DNA of 64,000 nucleotides from positions 1-64,000 of the forward strand of contig NZ_ANMO01000235.1 in assembly GCF_000338295.1 (NCBI RefSeq), read 5' to 3'. The notes beneath the pieces were generated by a model. It did no database searches. It had not been told where the DNA came from and saw only the letters and a program-made list of their open reading frames with translations. A program made the translations under genes and the position numbers. Below, piece after piece: positions 50,151-57,989 of this stretch. The first letter of the stretch is position 1, and every line of letters begins with the position of its first letter. The DNA is from Rhodopirellula europaea 6C (GTDB lineage: Bacteria; Planctomycetota; Planctomycetia; Pirellulales; Pirellulaceae).

Positions 50151-50702
50151 ATGATGATGCAACGTGTTGCCTTGATGTTGACGTTGGTTTGCGTTTCTTC
50201 CGTGGTCGCTTCAGCCGAGGAGAAGCCAACCTTTGATTCGGAACGATCAAAGATCACTTTCATCGGTGCAAAACCTGATGGAAAGCACGAGGGTGGATTC
50301 AAGAAATTCACCGCCGAGGCGACTTTGAATGTGGAAGATCCCAGCAAGGGATCATTGAAGATTGAAATTGATGCCACAAGCCTTTGGTCGGATGCTGATA
50401 AACTGACCAACCATCTGAAAAACCCTGACTTTTTCGACGTTCGCAAACACCCGAAGATCACATTTGAATCGACCAAAATCGAACATGATGCGTCGCAAGA
50501 CAAAGTGAACATCGTTGGTCATTTGACGATGCTTGGTAAGAAGGTGGAGGTCACGATCCCATCGATGCCAAAGCTGACCGAAGACATGTTGGTCTTGGCG
50601 GCGAACTTTGACATTGACCGAACCAAGTGGGGCATGACCTACGGCAAAGGCAAGATCAACGACGAGGTTGCCATCCGCGCGTTGCTCGTTTTCAAACGGT
50701 AA
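50151..50702 (+). CDS. YceI-family periplasmic protein
   Basis: 183 residues starting with three consecutive ATG codons. Signal peptide (ALMLTLVCVSSVVASA) then a lipocalin-like YceI barrel: FDSERSKITFIGAKPDGKHEGGF, DATSLWSDADKLTNHLKNPDFFDVRKHPKITFES, and VGHLTMLGKKVEVTIP. YceI proteins bind polyisoprenoid-like lipids; that is family knowledge, not proven here. Four bases separate it from the next gene. Confidence 0.9.
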   Translation: MMMQRVALMLTLVCVSSVVASAEEKPTFDSERSKITFIGAKPDGKHEGGFKKFTAEATLNVEDPSKGSLKIEIDATSLWSDADKLTNHLKNPDFFDVRKHPKITFESTKIEHDASQDKVNIVGHLTMLGKKVEVTIPSMPKLTEDMLVLAANFDIDRTKWGMTYGKGKINDEVAIRALLVFKR

Positions 50703-50706
50703 GACC

Positions 50707-51612
50707 GTGGAAACTCAAATCCTAATTTGGTGCGTGATAACGCCAGCGATCTTGTCGCTGGCGTTTGTCTTTGGAGCTTGGGCAATTCAGCGGTCCGAGC
50801 CGAATGCTTGGTCACGACCCCTGCCAGCAGTGCTCGCTGTGATTGGTTGGTGGGTCGCGGTCAGTGCCTGTATGTACGCGAGGCAAGATTTGGATTGGTC
50901 CGCGCTGGAGGCCTGGCAAATTGTATTGGCCCCCATTGGGATCGCGTCGCTGTTGTTGGCTGCGTGTCCGTGCGAAGTGGATTCGTTGCAAACGGCGAGC
51001 CCGCGAACGAGCTTTGGTTTTTGGTGGGTGGTTGCTGGTCTGGGATCCGTGGCGATTGCGATGTGGACCATGCCAACCGGTGATGGATGGACCGATATGT
51101 TGCCGCTTCATCGTCCTTGGATGGCATCCGTGGCGGCGGCATCGCTGATCAACATTTGGTCGTTGGGTCGGATGCGAAGAAGTGGCGCCGCAGCTTGGAT
51201 CCTTTGGGTTGGATTGGCTGGTTTGGTGGCACCCACTTTGTTGGCGGCCAGTGCTTACGGTGGTTTGGCGGAATGGATGGTGAGTGCACTGGTTTCGACA
51301 TTTGTTTTTGCGGTCGCCGCAGCGCTGATGCCCAACTCAACTATCGGAAGATTGTTTCCGGCCGTGCTTTTTTTGGCGGCGAGCACCACAGCGACGGGGC
51401 GGTTCTACACCTATGAAGATCATCCGACTTGGTTGTACGGATTGATCCTGTTGATGCCAACTTGCATCTCGATCCCGGATGCGTGGCTTCGAGAAAGATC
51501 GACGTTGATTCGAGTCTCCACGGCGGTCGTTGTCGCGACCCTTTTACTCGCCGTCATCGGATGGTTCTTGCTCGGTGATTCAATGTTTGGTGAACCGACC
51601 GAGGAATGGTGA
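50707..51612 (+). CDS. Hypothetical polytopic membrane protein
   Basis: 301 residues from GTG 50707. About eight to nine hydrophobic segments, rich in Ala, Val, Leu and Trp, with short polar loops. A CPC pair (LLAACPCEVDSL) is in one loop. No signature of a known transporter is recognised. Co-directional with yceI four bases away, so probably in one operon. Confidence 0.65.
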   Translation: METQILIWCVITPAILSLAFVFGAWAIQRSEPNAWSRPLPAVLAVIGWWVAVSACMYARQDLDWSALEAWQIVLAPIGIASLLLAACPCEVDSLQTASPRTSFGFWWVVAGLGSVAIAMWTMPTGDGWTDMLPLHRPWMASVAAASLINIWSLGRMRRSGAAAWILWVGLAGLVAPTLLAASAYGGLAEWMVSALVSTFVFAVAAALMPNSTIGRLFPAVLFLAASTTATGRFYTYEDHPTWLYGLILLMPTCISIPDAWLRERSTLIRVSTAVVVATLLLAVIGWFLLGDSMFGEPTEEW

Positions 51613-51661
51613 TGGGGAGTGGGAAGTGGTTCAGGGCCACAGGGCCACAGGGACTCAGGAC

Positions 51662-54600
51662 TCAGGACTTGTTCCACTTGCAGAGGGCGTTGACGTAGGC
51701 GGAGCCTCCGTCTCGGTTCCAACCGTCGAGTTGGCTCGGTTCTTTCAGTTGTTGACCGCGACGCATGGGCGTCACAATGAAGCGACTATCGATGTCCGAA
51801 AGCGTTGTCATGTCGCCCCATAGTTTTTCAAATTGGGCGACTGGGAACACATCTTCCTGAGCGTGGCCCCAGCGTTTCTTGACCTCTTTGAGTGTGATGT
51901 AGGTTGGCAAGCGAGCGGCCATTTGGCGGACCGCTGAGTCGACTGCCGACGCATCGTTCAACGAATCACGATTCAAGCCGAACGAATCAAGCAATGCATC
52001 GATGTCGATCCAGGTTGTCATCGAGTTGTAGAACTTTAGACCAAATTCGATGCGTTCGTCCGGCATCGCGAGGCCTTCGACCAGTCGTGGACGACCCGCA
52101 ACCAGGGCCAGTCCACCACCGCGGTCTTCCAGGCGGCGCGGGATGACTTCGTAGCTGAGAGTGGCTCCTGACTCGATGTGCAAACCAAACAGGCCTGGGG
52201 CAACATTGGCACCAAGGGTGTCGATGTTGTGCAGCATCAAATACCGGAGAGACGGTTGGTCTCGCAACATCTGCGAGAGCACGCCATTGCGGAAAAGGTT
52301 GGGGACTTCATACCAGTGACCGACTGGATGCACACACTGCGCCGCGACATTGTCGGTGTAGTCGGAACCTTCTCCCGTTTGTTGGGCCCAATTCGCGATC
52401 GCGGATCGAGCACTTTCTCGCATCTTTTGTTGTTGCTGGTCGAGAACCTGTTGAGCGGTTTCTTCCCACAGGAAATGAAGGTCGCGAACCATCGGGACCA
52501 TTCGTAACCCGACGCTTCGTCCGCTGGACACGTACACTGGGCCTTCGTGGCCATAGTTCTCAGTGCGATCCAAGACGGTCCGGATTGCTTCGTCGGTCAT
52601 CCAGCTGGTTGTGATGACGTGCGGAATGGTGCCGCCGTTTTGGGACGTTGCAGCACGGTTCTTTGCCAAGTGAATTTCGAGGAAGCTTCGATGCTTTCCG
52701 GCGAACCGATGAAACGGGTGCAGAGCTTTGCAAACGCCTGCACCTTGCGTCCAGCGACTGCCAACGCCCGCCGCTAACGTGACGACGCCGATCTCTCCAT
52801 TGGCGATGGCTTTGGAACCAATGTCGGCCAAACGGTCGTCTAGGCCGTCGCGAGTGTCAGTGACATGTTCTTTGGAGACGTCGGTGATTTTAAGGTCACG
52901 GGAAAGTCGGTTGGCTGCCAAGCCAAATTTGCCGGCTCGCATGTCGGCCCGGATCTGCTCATGTTGAGATCGATCAAAGCCGCTTCGTTTCAAAATCGCC
53001 GCGAGTGAGTCATCGCTCGTTTGCGAATCGTCTTTCTTGTCGCTGCTGGCTTTGTCATCCGATGGTAAAACGCTTCGGAGTAGCAATGCCGCGTTCGCTT
53101 CTCGATCATTTGGGTCGCTGCAACGCCGTGAGATGCCCGCCAATTCTTCGCGGGTTTGAGGCGACAACTCTCGCAGGGGCTTGCGAAGCCATTTCGGCAT
53201 CATCAACGCGTAGTACTTCTGCGGTAACACGGCGGACTGAGCCGGTATCAATTCAGCAAACGTTCCGTCGTCATTGATTTGGAAGTCATAGACAACCGGA
53301 TCCATCGCGAATGGCAACGCGGTTTCCAGTTCGCGTTTGACCGTCACCATTTCTTGGCTGAGCCAGTCTTGTGCGTCTTGTTTGATGGTCGGATCAAAGA
53401 TGAATCCCATGCCGCCACCGGACATGCCGCCCAACATCCAAAATCCCCAGAACTGATCGCCGTACTGTTCGCGACAACGCTGGATCATCACGTCCGTGAA
53501 CCGGTTGGTTGCCCAAGGAATGATCGATTGCAGGGGGCCTTCGAAGTTCTCGGTGGTCAGCGAACCAAGACGGCAGATGTCGCCTTGTTGCAGTGCCTCA
53601 ACAACCTCGTCGTAGATCCGCATGGCTTCTTGACGGCCGACCCATTGATCACGTCCACGAACGAGATAGTGCTCGGTGACCATCTCCAAGATTGGACCAA
53701 CGTTTTGGGCCATCCCACCATGTACAACGACCAGCGAATCCTGCAGTTTTTGTCGAGCTTCGGTGCTGACGCGGTTTTCGCCCAAGACTTCGTGGTCGGG
53801 CATCAAGCGTCCGCGACTGATTCCGAATTCGGGATCCTCTTCACCGGCAATCTGGCCGCAAATCAGTTTGATGCCGGGCCAGACACCGCCTGAGTCCTGC
53901 CACCCGCCTCCGCTGCCGCCGATCCATTCACCCAAGATTGCGCGAGCCGCAATCAGGCGTCGGTCGGGTTCGGTCAGCTCGCCCTGCAGCGACTGGATTT
54001 GACCGGTTGCTCGCATCAGGTTGCTGATGAGCGAACCCAGCAAGTTCGTCGAAACGGCCAGGCGAGAACCTTTGGGGATGTCGTTGATTTTGGAAACCAG
54101 TTCCAAACCTTTGCCACGACCGACGACGCGTTCGAGCAGTGATGCCATGTCGGAGCCGCAACCTTCCAGTCCCGGTGGGACGACACCGGCGGCGATCACA
54201 GCGGCTTTGAGCAACCCGAGGTAGTCCCTCGCAAAGTCAAACATTTCGGCGATGGTGGTCACTTCGACGCTGGCATTGAGGTCAACGCTGACCAACCGAA
54301 ACACCGGTTTGTCGATCACTCGCAAGTAGGTCTCAATCGGCGGTCGAACTTGGTCGTCTCGTCCTCGGACGCCGAGGTCGACCGAGACGTTGATGACGCG
54401 AGCACCCTCAGGGTAGTCCATTCCCAAAAAGAAGATGTCACTCCACGCCGAGTGAGAAACGTCCATGCGAACGGCGGTGGTTTCTTTTAAAACCGGCGAA
54501 AGATTCGGGGCGTCTTTGGTTGGCAACAGCTCCTTGCGGATGCGAAGTGGGTGTTCGGCAACATGTCCCAAACGAAACATCCATTGGTTGCCACGAACGG

Positions 54601-55030
54601 TTCGGACGCTGTGGCGAACTTGATCGGCCAGCGTTTGAAAACCTAGTTCGTGGTACGCCGATGCTAACGCACTGGACAATGAATCGCTGGCACCATCGGT
54701 CGACTGGACTTCTAAAAATTCATCGATCGCTTCTTGAAAGCGTCGTCCGAGCAGATGTTCGTAACCTTCAAAGGGGATGCTGCCGGAACTGGATTGATCC
54801 AAACGTGGCGGAAGGTGGTACCGATAAATGGCCGACAGAAAAAACAACGCTCGCACACGTTGGTACAAGTTGTCTTCTTGACGCCGAAAGCGATCCAGTT
54901 CGGTGATGTGGTCAAGCAACTCGGATAGCGTGGCGTCTTCTACCAACGATTCGAGCGAGCGATCACGTAGGTCGGCTTGGTCGGTGGTGATCGTTTCGAT
55001 CAATGCGTTCATGGAGCGAACTTCCGGCAT
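51662..55030 (-). CDS. GHMP kinase (fucokinase-like) fused to UDPGP-type sugar pyrophosphorylase
   Basis: 1122 residues from ATG 55030. An all-helical N-terminus (1-170) precedes a GHMP kinase region: TAVRMDVSHSAWSDIFFLG (185-203), the ATP-loop equivalent IPKGSRLAVSTNLLGSL (318-334), then GEWIGGSGGGWQDSGG (367-382), the fucokinase-type signature, and FWGFWMLGGMSGGGMGFIF (527-545). The usual GSGLGTSS loop is altered to GSRLAVST. After a Ser/Asp/Lys-rich linker at about 655-680 a UDPGP-type nucleotidyltransferase starts: TLAAGVGSRWTQGAGVCKAL (751-770) and YLMLHNIDTLGANVAPGLFG (930-949). Probably phosphorylates a sugar and then forms a nucleotide sugar. The order is opposite to that in Fkp. Its start overlaps the GalU-like stop (TGATG). 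Confidence 0.75.
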   Translation of the reverse strand: MPEVRSMNALIETITTDQADLRDRSLESLVEDATLSELLDHITELDRFRRQEDNLYQRVRALFFLSAIYRYHLPPRLDQSSSGSIPFEGYEHLLGRRFQEAIDEFLEVQSTDGASDSLSSALASAYHELGFQTLADQVRHSVRTVRGNQWMFRLGHVAEHPLRIRKELLPTKDAPNLSPVLKETTAVRMDVSHSAWSDIFFLGMDYPEGARVINVSVDLGVRGRDDQVRPPIETYLRVIDKPVFRLVSVDLNASVEVTTIAEMFDFARDYLGLLKAAVIAAGVVPPGLEGCGSDMASLLERVVGRGKGLELVSKINDIPKGSRLAVSTNLLGSLISNLMRATGQIQSLQGELTEPDRRLIAARAILGEWIGGSGGGWQDSGGVWPGIKLICGQIAGEEDPEFGISRGRLMPDHEVLGENRVSTEARQKLQDSLVVVHGGMAQNVGPILEMVTEHYLVRGRDQWVGRQEAMRIYDEVVEALQQGDICRLGSLTTENFEGPLQSIIPWATNRFTDVMIQRCREQYGDQFWGFWMLGGMSGGGMGFIFDPTIKQDAQDWLSQEMVTVKRELETALPFAMDPVVYDFQINDDGTFAELIPAQSAVLPQKYYALMMPKWLRKPLRELSPQTREELAGISRRCSDPNDREANAALLLRSVLPSDDKASSDKKDDSQTSDDSLAAILKRSGFDRSQHEQIRADMRAGKFGLAANRLSRDLKITDVSKEHVTDTRDGLDDRLADIGSKAIANGEIGVVTLAAGVGSRWTQGAGVCKALHPFHRFAGKHRSFLEIHLAKNRAATSQNGGTIPHVITTSWMTDEAIRTVLDRTENYGHEGPVYVSSGRSVGLRMVPMVRDLHFLWEETAQQVLDQQQQKMRESARSAIANWAQQTGEGSDYTDNVAAQCVHPVGHWYEVPNLFRNGVLSQMLRDQPSLRYLMLHNIDTLGANVAPGLFGLHIESGATLSYEVIPRRLEDRGGGLALVAGRPRLVEGLAMPDERIEFGLKFYNSMTTWIDIDALLDSFGLNRDSLNDASAVDSAVRQMAARLPTYITLKEVKKRWGHAQEDVFPVAQFEKLWGDMTTLSDIDSRFIVTPMRRGQQLKEPSQLDGWNRDGGSAYVNALCKWNKS

Positions 55031-55932
55031 CAGTTGGATCCTTCCAAAGGAGACGATTCGGATGGCGGGTCAATGGTTGCCGCGACTGGATGTTCCGCTC
55101 GCGTGGCGAGAAGTTCAACCAGTTCGGTCAGCAACAGGTCTCGATCGCGTCCGGACAGTCCGATGGCCAGTTGTGCGATCAGAACTCCGTATTGTTCGCC
55201 GATGTTGTAACGACGTCCCCGAAGTTGATAGGCAAGGTATTTGCCGCGATGAGGAAGTTTGGCCATCGCATCGGATAGCGAGGGCCGTTCCATGCTTTCA
55301 TCGGAGGCAACTTCGTGAAGGCATTCCATCACCGCGGATGTCAGGACGTGCATGCCGAAGTAGCCGAGGTAGTAGCCGCTACGCAGGCCCGGCGTGATCA
55401 AGGATTGTTCCGCGAGCGTGGGCGTTGGTTTTTCGACAACCGTTCGCACGTCATACAAACCATCGAATCGAGGCACGCTGGTTCCAGCGACAATGCCAAA
55501 GTATGGCAAGCGATGTTCTCGGGTGGACTGGACCGCGGAGACCGGACAGGAGTGATGTTCGGCCATCTCGATCAGTTGTGCCGCGCAACTTTTTGAAGTT
55601 GCCGACAGGTACAGGTGATCGCCAACGAGATGCAGAAAGGGATCGTCTCCGCAAAACGATTCCGCTTGCAGGATTGCGTCGGCGTACCCGAGCGGTCGCT
55701 CTTGATGGACAAATTGAATGTTGCCGAGCGAGCCACCGGCGGCCTTGCGGTAGTTGTCCTCGTCACCGGGCTGGATCACGACGCAGATCTCTTCCACGCC
55801 CGCCGAGAGCGTTTCTTCGACGATCAGCTGTAGAGCTGTTTTTTCCTCGCCCGAACCGTCGACCAGTCGTTGCAGCGGCAGGGTGTTTTGGTTGGGGGCC
55901 GCGGCGGTGATAACCGCTTTTCGAACTCGCAT
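55030..55932 (-). CDS. GalU-like nucleotidyltransferase with a changed signature loop
   Basis: 300 residues from ATG 55932. Overall layout follows UTP-glucose-1-phosphate uridylyltransferases: LIVEETLSAGVEEICVVIQPGDE, FVHQERPLGYADAILQAESF, LHLVGDHLYL, VVEKPTP, and SDAMAKLPHRGKYLAYQLRG with RYNIGEQYG. The usual nucleotide-binding loop (AAGLGTRFLP...K) is replaced by AAAPNQNTLPLQRLVDG, so the G-x-G-T-R arginine and the nearby Lys are missing. It could be a regulatory or non-catalytic partner, or use another base. Stop overlaps the start of the kinase-pyrophosphorylase gene by one base, which strongly suggests joint function. Confidence 0.75.
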   Translation of the reverse strand: MRVRKAVITAAAPNQNTLPLQRLVDGSGEEKTALQLIVEETLSAGVEEICVVIQPGDEDNYRKAAGGSLGNIQFVHQERPLGYADAILQAESFCGDDPFLHLVGDHLYLSATSKSCAAQLIEMAEHHSCPVSAVQSTREHRLPYFGIVAGTSVPRFDGLYDVRTVVEKPTPTLAEQSLITPGLRSGYYLGYFGMHVLTSAVMECLHEVASDESMERPSLSDAMAKLPHRGKYLAYQLRGRRYNIGEQYGVLIAQLAIGLSGRDRDLLLTELVELLATRAEHPVAATIDPPSESSPLEGSN

Positions 55933-56159
55933 GGATCGATCTTTGAGATAAGGAAAAGGCAATGATTAGTTGCATCGACCCACAGAATAGTCGAGGCGTG
56001 ATCGGTCGCCACCGGATCGCACCAATTGGGGTGCTCGAGTGCGAAATCCCCCACCGCGGATGCGGTCAGCTATCCTGTTGGCGTTCCGCTTGGAAGGACT
56101 GTGTCGGTTTTTCCGTTGTTGCGGGATTGATTGAGGGTCTCTGAAATCAAAGGTTGGTA
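55933..56159. other. Divergent promoter region between GalU-like gene and sulfatase
   Basis: 227 bases with AT-richer stretches; must drive both divergent genes. An imperfect inverted repeat around GTGATCGGTCGCCACCGGATCGCAC is seen near 56000. No consensus -35/-10 pair is convincing. Confidence 0.35.
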
Positions 56160-57989
56160 GTGCGCGTCATCTCCGTTTCTCGCGATGTTGTGGTTTGGTC
56201 GTTTCTCTTGGCATCCTGGATCGGCATCGGACTCCCTTGCCGAGCCGACTCTGGTTCACGGCCCAATGTGTTGGTTGTTTTGACGGATGATCAGGGGTGG
56301 GGCGATCTCAGTCTGCATGGCAATCCCAATTTGCAGACGCCGCACATCGATTCGCTGGCCCGCGATGGAGTTCAAATCAAGAACTTCTACGTGTGTGCGG
56401 TTTGCTCGCCGACTCGCGCAGAATTTTTGACCGGTCGGTATCACACACGATCGGGTGTGTTCAGCACTTCGGCGGGTGGCGAACGATTCGACTTGTCCGA
56501 GCGGACGATCGAAGACGCTTTTCAAGCAGCGGGTTACCGGACCGCGGCGTTCGGAAAATGGCACTCAGGCATGCAGGCTCCGTATCACCCCAACGCTCGC
56601 GGGTTTGATGAGTTCTACGGTTTCTGCAGCGGGCACTGGGGCAACTACTTTTCACCGATGCTGGAACACAACGGCAAGATCGTGAAAGGCGAGGGATTTA
56701 TCGTCGATGATTTGACTCAGCATGCGATCGACTTCATGGAACAAGATCGCGAAAATCCTTTCTTCGTGTATTTGCCGCTGAACACGCCGCACTCGCCGAT
56801 GCAGGTTCCCGATGAAGATTGGGAAAAGTTTGAAGGCAAAGAGATCGTGCCTGATCCAAGACCGGAGAATGCAAAGAAGGAAGACGTTCAACACACACGA
56901 GCGGCATTGGCTCTTTGTGAGAACATCGACGACAACGTGGGACGCTTGCTCGATGCGTTGGATCGTCTGTCATTGAGTGAGAATACGATTGTCGTGTTCT
57001 TCTGTGACAACGGTCCCAATGGTTCTCGGTTCAATGGCGGATTGAGAGGACGCAAAGGTGCGGTTCACGAAGGCGGTTTGCGTTCTCCCTGTTTGATTCG
57101 ATACCCCGGCAAACTCCCCGCCGGGCAAACGGTCGGCGGAATCGCGGGAGCGATCGATTTGTTTCCGACCTTGGCTGATCTTTGCGACGTCGAGGTTGGT
57201 TCCACCGCTGGGCCGCTGGATGGCATTTCGCTGGTCGATGGCTTGCGTGACTCGGAATCCGAACCCGCGGAGCGTTTGATCTTCACCGCATGGGGTGGAA
57301 AGTTCAGCGTCCGATCCAATCGGTATCGCTATCACGCCAACGGCGACTTGTTTGACATCGTGGCTGATCCGGGCGAGACACAATCGGTCGCCGAGGAACA
57401 GCCCGTCGCAACGGCACGGTTGAAACGGGCTTTGCAGGATTGGGTGAAAGAGACCAAACCTCGTGATCGGAATCATTCGGAGGAGCAGGTCTTTCCGGTT
57501 GGATATCCCGATTATCCGTGGACGCAGCTTCCCGCTCGCGATGCACGGGCAACCGGTGAGATTCGTCGCAGCAACCGGTTTCCCAACAGCAGTTACATGA
57601 CGAATTGGCATTCGACCAAGGATGCCATGACCTGGGACGTCGATGTGTTAGCCGGTGGCCAATTTGACGTGGAGGTGTTCTACGCTTGCCCCGAGTCGGC
57701 TGTGGGGACGCAATTGAATTTGGAATGGATGCAGGGCGATGCGACGGCGACAACCGATTCCGTCGTGACCCAAGCGAATCCCTCCGGACCGATTCACTTA
57801 GACAAAGACCGTTCGAAAAGAGCTGAAAGCGATGAGAAGGATTGGAAGAAAATGTCGCTCGGCCAAATCAATTTGTCCGAGGGCAGGGGACGCCTGTCAT
57901 TGACCTGCCCAAGAATCATGGGCGAGGATGGGGAGACTCGAGGATTGGAGATTCGGCTGATGATGCTGCATCGCGTTCCCGCCGAGTGA
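56160..57989 (+). CDS. Secreted sulfatase (arylsulfatase type)
   Basis: 609 residues from GTG 56160, chosen because AAAGG is six bases upstream; TTG 56154 is also in frame. Signal peptide near VVVWSFLLASWIGIGLPCRA. DDQGWGDLSLHGNP carries the metal-binding Asp pair; CSPTR at 82-86 holds the Cys that becomes formylglycine; GKWHSG and DNGPNGSRFNGGLRG are further family motifs. The last 150 residues form an extra beta-rich domain not found in minimal sulfatases, perhaps glycan-binding. Divergent from the GalU-like gene. Sulfate-ester hydrolysis on an unknown polysaccharide is expected. Confidence 0.93.
   Translation: MRVISVSRDVVVWSFLLASWIGIGLPCRADSGSRPNVLVVLTDDQGWGDLSLHGNPNLQTPHIDSLARDGVQIKNFYVCAVCSPTRAEFLTGRYHTRSGVFSTSAGGERFDLSERTIEDAFQAAGYRTAAFGKWHSGMQAPYHPNARGFDEFYGFCSGHWGNYFSPMLEHNGKIVKGEGFIVDDLTQHAIDFMEQDRENPFFVYLPLNTPHSPMQVPDEDWEKFEGKEIVPDPRPENAKKEDVQHTRAALALCENIDDNVGRLLDALDRLSLSENTIVVFFCDNGPNGSRFNGGLRGRKGAVHEGGLRSPCLIRYPGKLPAGQTVGGIAGAIDLFPTLADLCDVEVGSTAGPLDGISLVDGLRDSESEPAERLIFTAWGGKFSVRSNRYRYHANGDLFDIVADPGETQSVAEEQPVATARLKRALQDWVKETKPRDRNHSEEQVFPVGYPDYPWTQLPARDARATGEIRRSNRFPNSSYMTNWHSTKDAMTWDVDVLAGGQFDVEVFYACPESAVGTQLNLEWMQGDATATTDSVVTQANPSGPIHLDKDRSKRAESDEKDWKKMSLGQINLSEGRGRLSLTCPRIMGEDGETRGLEIRLMMLHRVPAE

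Follow-up and report, generated by a model that had tools for sequence, protein, structure and literature searches.

A fucokinase-type kinase–UDPGP pyrophosphorylase fusion and its GalU-like partner in Rhodopirellula europaea 6C: a candidate route from free sugar to nucleotide sugar

Two coupled genes, here called P1 and P2, lie in a 64,000-nucleotide stretch of Rhodopirellula europaea 6C (contig NZ_ANMO01000235.1, positions 1 to 64,000), referred to below as the window. On the minus strand, to which all feature coordinates of the pair refer, P2 (55932-55030) is followed by P1 (55030-51662). Both open reading frames were confirmed at these positions: P1 encodes 1122 residues; P2 has 300 residues counted from the ATG at 55932, or 310 if an alternative TTG start 30 bases upstream is used. 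The stop codon TGA of P2 and the start codon ATG of P1 share one base in the sequence TGATG (55028..55032). Across the 83 loci that carry both genes, the spacing from P2 to P1 is -4 in 24 cases and -1 in 2, taking the nominal first starts. The original prediction for this DNA had described a GalU-like gene overlapping, through TGATG, a 1122-residue protein with a fucokinase-type GHMP signature followed by a UDPGP-type pyrophosphorylase. The reading frames and the sequence bear out the layout, and the NF009948 and PF01704 models together with the predicted fold bear out the domain assignment.

P1 (51662..55030) is predicted to join an N-terminal helical domain, a fucokinase-type GHMP kinase and a UDPGP-family pyrophosphorylase. 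The helical domain (residues 1-179, 54494..55030) holds the conserved motif QVRRSVRxVRGNQWMFRxGH. It matches no Pfam or NCBIfam model at E ≤ 10 and no PDB sequence, and nonetheless contains strongly conserved stretches in the 65-row alignment, in which P1 is 58-80% identical to its 64 aligned relatives. The kinase region (approximately residues 180-600, 53231..54493) is nearest to the kinase half of Fkp: the Fkp model NF009948 matches residues 185-498 with precisely this half at E 4e-17 and 61.2 bits, its curated cut-off of 721 bits not being reached, and an Fkp chain is matched among PDB sequences at E 4e-9. Pfam GHMP_kinases_N has no match in P1 at E ≤ 10 and GHMP_kinases_C reaches 12.5 bits, below its gathering score of 21; the kinase assignment is therefore based on the Fkp model, the PDB match and the fold, not on the Pfam GHMP models.

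The UDPGP-family region (approximately residues 676-1122, 51665..53005) passes the gathering score of PF01704 (35.6 bits against 22, E 6e-9), and PF07959, the fucose pyrophosphorylase family, has no match in P1 at E ≤ 10. Its nucleotide-binding loop (residues 753-768, 52727..52774; LAAGVGSRWTQGAG at 752-765) contains K768. When a profile of 65 P1 sequences was compared with PDB sequences, eukaryotic UGPs were matched at a best E of 8e-14 and Fkp at 1e-10. The C-terminal part also matched a profile of standalone planctomycete UDPGP proteins (18 sequences passing a motif filter, from 30 loci) with a probability of 99% and E 2.2e-18. An AlphaFold2 model based on the alignment of 65 sequences has a mean predicted local distance difference test score (pLDDT) of 86.5 and a predicted template-modelling score of 0.87; it is weaker in the active-site loops at residues 191-210, 321-330 and 371-380 (pLDDT 56-66). 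Foldseek places Fkp at the top, 9iit and then 9iip (E 3.6e-19, template-modelling score 0.80 by target length), followed, among the matches listed, by UAP and UGP with scores of about 0.52-0.62 by target length. As modelled, the folds of P1 match a GHMP kinase and a UDPGP pyrophosphorylase.

Residue conservation was counted over 95 P1 rows, that is the window and 94 loci with at least 900 matched residues; one gene appears in two rows, L016 and L027, and some genomes may be represented twice. Kinase equivalences were taken from a sequence alignment with Fkp from the PDB. The available text of PMC11982464 names R592, W599, D601, T602, E751, G759, Q761 and D762 of Fkp, and a loop at 712-720 with S719 on the metal. 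Apart from T602, to which we return below, all these single residues are found in each of the 95 rows: R592, W599, D601 and E751 as R188, W196, D198 and E368 of P1, and G759, Q761, D762 and S719 as G376, Q378, D379 and S327. D379, the equivalent of the general base, stands with G376 and Q378 in GGGWQD (residues 374-379, 53894..53911; GGSGGGWQDSGG at 371-382).

The ATP loop PKGSRLAVST (residues 319-328, 54047..54076; GSRLAVST at 321-328) corresponds to Fkp 711-720, with two glycines replaced (G715 by R323, G717 by A325). This difference, together with the lower pLDDT of the active-site loops, could mean that the kinase half is inactive or has a regulatory role, leaving the pyrophosphorylase to work alone. 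However, R323, S327 and T328 are present in 95/95 rows, IPKGSRLAVST is invariant in the 65-row alignment, and distant members show no more than single changes (K320 to R in the copy of genome G187, L324 to F in the Hymenobacter copy). Because the loop is nearly fixed and the Fkp kinase residues other than T602 are kept throughout, its altered form is, as far as the alignments tell, a signature of the family and not decay; a dead kinase half appears very unlikely.

On the pyrophosphorylase side, equivalences were inferred from sequence and profile alignment. For the UGP of A. nidulans, the accessible part of PMC10470519 lists K135, Q198, G227-H228, N256, D258, E307, N329, N331 and K403. K135, H228, N256 and D258 correspond to K768, H905, N935 and D937 of P1, each present in 95/95 rows; G227 and E307 correspond to G904 and E985, invariant in the 65-row alignment, and the counterpart of N329, N1002, is retained in 94/95. 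P1 thereby resembles the family PF01704 (UGP, UAP/AGX) in its fold, the lysine of the nucleotide-binding loop, the P-x-G-H and N-x-D motifs and the pocket glutamate. It differs from it in a mostly leucine column at the uracil-binding glutamine, in the change of GHG to GHW (93/95 rows; GHF in 2/95) and in its position behind a kinase. USP belongs to the same family. By eye, P1 had seemed to be without the lysine of the UDPGP 'PVK' motif, an idea that was dropped as the profile alignment puts PVAQFEK elsewhere.

To our knowledge, few enzymes make a nucleotide sugar directly from the free sugar. The best studied is Fkp, a workhorse for making GDP-fucose. Fkp (NF009948/PRK13412; Bacteroides fragilis; PDB 9iip, 9iit, 5yys) and P1 both hold a sugar-1-kinase and a nucleotidyltransferase in one chain, with the same catalytic residues in the kinase half, T602 excepted. 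In contrast to Fkp, P1 has the reversed domain order, a UDPGP domain instead of PF07959, an extra N-terminal domain and, usually, an adjoining GalU-like gene; true Fkp proteins of the same phylum (L136, L179) have PF07959 first and GHMP second. Since the order is opposite and the pyrophosphorylase comes from another family, P1 appears to have been assembled separately, as the original prediction had it, and true Fkp coexists with it in the phylum. Out of 35 P1-bearing genomes found, 28 were searched for Fkp: four carry a true Fkp alongside P1, and in 24, including the window's genome, Fkp is not matched at E ≤ 1e-60. Fkp genes above the curated cut-off were seen at 3210-6572 of L179 and 853-3786 of L180, in the P1-carrying genomes G399 and G410.

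In the open-access literature, which leaves most subscription journals outside, our search met no description of a kinase-first UDPGP fusion or of a P1/P2 pair. The nearest entries were the Fkp papers and a zebrafish fusion, DrGKUP, presented in the available part of PMC3938481 as a glucuronokinase/putative UDP-GlcA pyrophosphorylase with an N-terminal nucleotidyltransferase domain. Like our pair, DrGKUP, as described there, couples a GHMP sugar kinase to a bacterial-type nucleotidyltransferase; unlike in DrGKUP, the GalU-like P2 is a protein of its own without the loop, and the kinase is of the fucokinase type and has a UDPGP domain fused behind it.

P2 (55030..55932) is GalU-like, with a predicted nucleotidyltransferase fold and a lost triphosphate loop. 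NTP_transferase PF00483 matches it with 43.1 bits, above the gathering score of 21.2, and galU TIGR01099 with 88.2 bits (E 6e-25), below the cut-off of 326.8. Among PDB sequences B. subtilis YngB is nearest (E 4e-22), and the P2 model (mean pLDDT 90.4) has YngB and GalU structures as top Foldseek matches. Its identity to 57 aligned relatives is 47-79%. The GalU loop GxGTRxLPxTK and the lysine of VEKP are described in the accessible text of PMC6888414. Residues 9-25 of P2 (55858..55908) take the place of the GxGTRxLPxTK..PKE loop, which is shortened and without GxGTR or lysine: GxGTR is present in 0/85 P2 rows, and the loop lysine is kept in two, L011 (G377) and L013 (G187), as well as in the Hymenobacter copy outside these rows. 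The sugar-phosphate-binding motif EKP (residues 167-169, 55426..55434) is intact in 85/85 rows as E167, K168 and P169, as are Q77 (base), D105 (metal) and H106.

With metal aspartate, base glutamine and EKP all in place, and with most rows also conserving the shortened loop (Q15 in 70/85, Q21 in 81/85, D25 in 82/85), P2 might have rebuilt its loop and be an active nucleotidyltransferase that makes a nucleotide sugar of its own. Against this speak the complete loss of GxGTR and the missing lysine in 83/85 rows, and the column of the second metal aspartate, where aspartate stands in 27 rows, asparagine in 56 and proline in 2. In E. coli GalU, moreover, changes of the loop residues T20 and R21 lowered Vmax by three orders of magnitude, according to the available part of PMC4643126. 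An active P2 thus seems quite unlikely; given that the triphosphate loop is gone, P2 is likely the non-catalytic member of the pair. The earlier suggestion that altered loops might mark one member as regulatory can be upheld, as a likely reading, for P2; it does not extend to the near-invariant kinase loop of P1.

E. coli GalF, which stands beside GalU, has an altered triphosphate loop and very low activity and has been proposed as a regulator, as the accessible parts of PMC4643126 and PMC6888414 relate. So described, GalF is like P2 in being a GalU relative with a changed triphosphate loop and a kept EKP lysine. The loop change in P2 is bigger, with the lysine stretch deleted in 83/85 rows, and the neighbour of P2 is a kinase/UDPGP fusion where that of GalF is GalU.

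The relatives of P2 form a series from intact to lost loop: GRGTR is retained, together with the lysine, in a second copy of G431 and in a GalU-like gene of G111, whose intact-loop product is 39% identical to P2. On this account the sequences suggest that P2 goes back to a functional enzyme, which may at one time have stood next to a GHMP kinase. The P2 tree is poorly resolved (6/22 inner branches starred; its rows L113 and L117 are longest open reading frames, not GalU relatives) and was used for pairwise identities and a loose intact-loop grouping. The second, near-canonical GalU-like gene of G431 (L147, 5484-6461), with a P2-like DG insertion, lies directly before a gene that by eye resembles MurG. 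In G111, genes for a ROK regulator, a galactokinase-like GHMP protein, an inositol-phosphatase-like protein and the intact-loop GalU-like protein form a run (L135, 880-5665), possibly a separate sugar-activation operon.

Homologues share the gene pairing across several phyla, P2 being in the same locus in 83/95 P1 rows. Five of the 12 rows without it (L012, L025, L060, L092, L102) are cut close to the P1 start; L092 contains part of P2, and in G165, from which L025 comes, P2 adjoins P1. The remaining seven are L010, L016 and L027, L058, L074, L088 and L093. P2 is absent at E ≤ 1e-15 from all 30 chosen relatives that are without P1. As a positive control, the same query matched in 7/15 genomes; one of these was G111, which has Fkp and no P1, and its match is the intact-loop GalU-like protein, not P2 proper. 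P2 was also not found in G288, which says little because its P1 starts at the first base of the contig.

At least 556 relatives of P1 exist, and the best 80 were kept for comparison of loci. Judging by record titles, which may mislead as many are binned genomes, these 80 belong to Planctomycetota, Verrucomicrobiota, Chloroflexota, Acidobacteriota, Armatimonadota, KSB1 and Kiritimatiellota. Among 392 Planctomycetota genomes, 24 match P1 at E ≤ 1e-10 and 19 hold it, the window's genome included; in G081, G111, G145, G295 and G363 only part of P1 is matched, three of these five being true Fkp. Closer to the window, 17/40 relatives match P1, including 11/13 genomes of the same genus (the window's own counted). 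Of 151 genomes in the phylum of G432, a Chloroflexi relative, 3 match P1 at E ≤ 1e-60, G432 among them. Phyla are mostly grouped on the P1 tree, with Chloroflexota, Armatimonadota and Acidobacteriota intermixed; they need 7 changes, against a minimum of 5 and a shuffled mean of 26.5, and rampant horizontal transfer as the main story is not borne out. On a Hymenobacter volaticus plasmid (L111, 8016-11271), P1 is present in two open pieces, and the P2 copy adjoining it is unbroken; no gene is annotated there in the plasmid's incomplete table, and the split is either a broken gene or a sequencing error.

The nearest long open reading frames flanking the pair, 56154-57989 and 50668-51612, both lie on the plus strand, so that P2 and P1 look like an isolated two-gene unit within the window. 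The divergent neighbour at 56154-57989 resembles a secreted sulfatase, judged by eye. No RNA element of Rfam was matched in 51400-56300, and a promoter scan of the locus gave no sigma-70-like site; terminator-like sites numbered 10 against a shuffled mean of 5.9 and were used for no reading. A defence-system reading was dropped, as PADLOC gave no match to P1 or P2 at E ≤ 1. Besides P1 and P2, the two commonest neighbour families are found at 10 and 9 of the 80 loci, which in each case belong to Planctomycetota, and the commonest Pfam family is found in 3 of 87 neighbour proteins scanned (chosen from 153). With no family recurring widely enough, a substrate guess based on neighbours was abandoned.

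From the predicted folds, the gene pairing, the conserved residues and the absence of P2 in P1-less relatives, we lean slightly towards a reading in which P1, as kinase and then pyrophosphorylase, turns a fucose-type sugar into a nucleotide sugar, with P2 as its non-catalytic partner. The kinase domain would phosphorylate C1 of the sugar with ATP, and the fused UDPGP domain would join the sugar-1-phosphate to a nucleoside triphosphate, in the direction of nucleotide sugar and pyrophosphate. P2 would be the descendant of a GalU-type pyrophosphorylase which lost its triphosphate loop and kept the residues of the base, metal and sugar-phosphate pocket. It probably binds a sugar-1-phosphate or nucleotide sugar and, presumably in contact with P1, would tune or stabilise it, much as GalF has been suggested to act on GalU. 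In the kinase pocket, the conserved Trp, Asp, Gln and Asp favour a fucose-shaped sugar. As for the base, membership of the UDPGP family speaks for UTP, and the loss of the uracil glutamine would allow a different one.

Several observations weigh against this reading. In the kinase half, T602 of Fkp is replaced by isoleucine (I199) in 95/95 rows. In the pyrophosphorylase half, the column of UGP N331 (P1 1004) holds M in 50, L in 25, N in 9 and other residues in 11 of 95 rows, and K403 has no sure counterpart, K1096 being a candidate at the low-confidence end of the profile alignment. The column of the uracil-binding Gln198 (P1 842) holds L in 85, M in 5 and Q in 5 of 95 rows; with Leu or Met in 90/95, the use of UTP is not assured. 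P1 is alone despite upstream room in nine genomes, only four of which have P2 elsewhere (G430-G433, the genomes of L058, L074, L088 and L093; 48-55% identical). In G179, G150, G045, G035 and G191 (84-90% complete), no P2 was found at E ≤ 1e-6, so either P2 is not always needed or it is missing from those assemblies. Finally, the scan of the nearest neighbours shows no recurring gene family of a sugar pathway.

The isoleucine at T602 and the N331 column, which is Met or Leu in 75/95 rows and belongs to the glucose pocket of UGP, would also suit a P1 whose substrate is not L-fucose and whose product goes into a particular glycan or small molecule; L-galactose, D-arabinose, a heptose and a uronic acid are the candidate sugars. 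Fkp itself tolerates changes at C5 of the sugar, according to the available text of PMC11982464. W196, D198, Q378 and D379, fixed in all rows, favour instead an L-fuco or D-arabino shape, and the scanned neighbours point to no pathway. We take such a substrate as a real possibility, if one short of an even chance.

The lost uracil glutamine, compatible with a change of base, and the kept fucokinase-type pocket could alternatively mean that P1 evolved convergently to make GDP-L-fucose alone, doing the job of Fkp with a UDPGP domain switched from UTP to GTP. The 24 genomes without an Fkp match, the window's included, would agree with this. On the other hand, P1 would then be redundant in the four genomes with a true Fkp, the uracil glutamine is retained in 5/95 rows, and the window's genome has Gmd, above its cut-off, for a step of de novo GDP-fucose synthesis. 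The well-known UDPGP enzymes, besides, use UTP. Overall, we find a GDP-L-fucose-only route unlikely.

Returning to the kinase-pyrophosphorylase with a non-catalytic partner, one may speculate on its history, with little confidence. A GalU-type enzyme may once have worked beside a sugar-1-kinase, much as the intact-loop protein of G111, encoded near a galactokinase-like gene, still appears to, until the kinase-UDPGP fusion displaced it as the catalyst; having lost its triphosphate loop, it would then have become a subunit sensing product or substrate. The nucleotide sugar of such a module might be one hardly or not described in bacteria, for instance UDP-linked L-fucose or D-arabinose. In the accessible part of one paper (PMC5964661), 'UDP-L-fucose' occurs as a colour label in the legend of a Clostridium perfringens capsule locus.

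P1 would represent a second, separately built kinase-pyrophosphorylase fusion, present in several largely uncultured bacterial groups. It could provide a new tool, and it may lead to an activated sugar that is as yet undescribed. The relatives of P2, spanning intact to lost catalytic loops, would allow direct study of how an enzyme turns into a non-catalytic partner.

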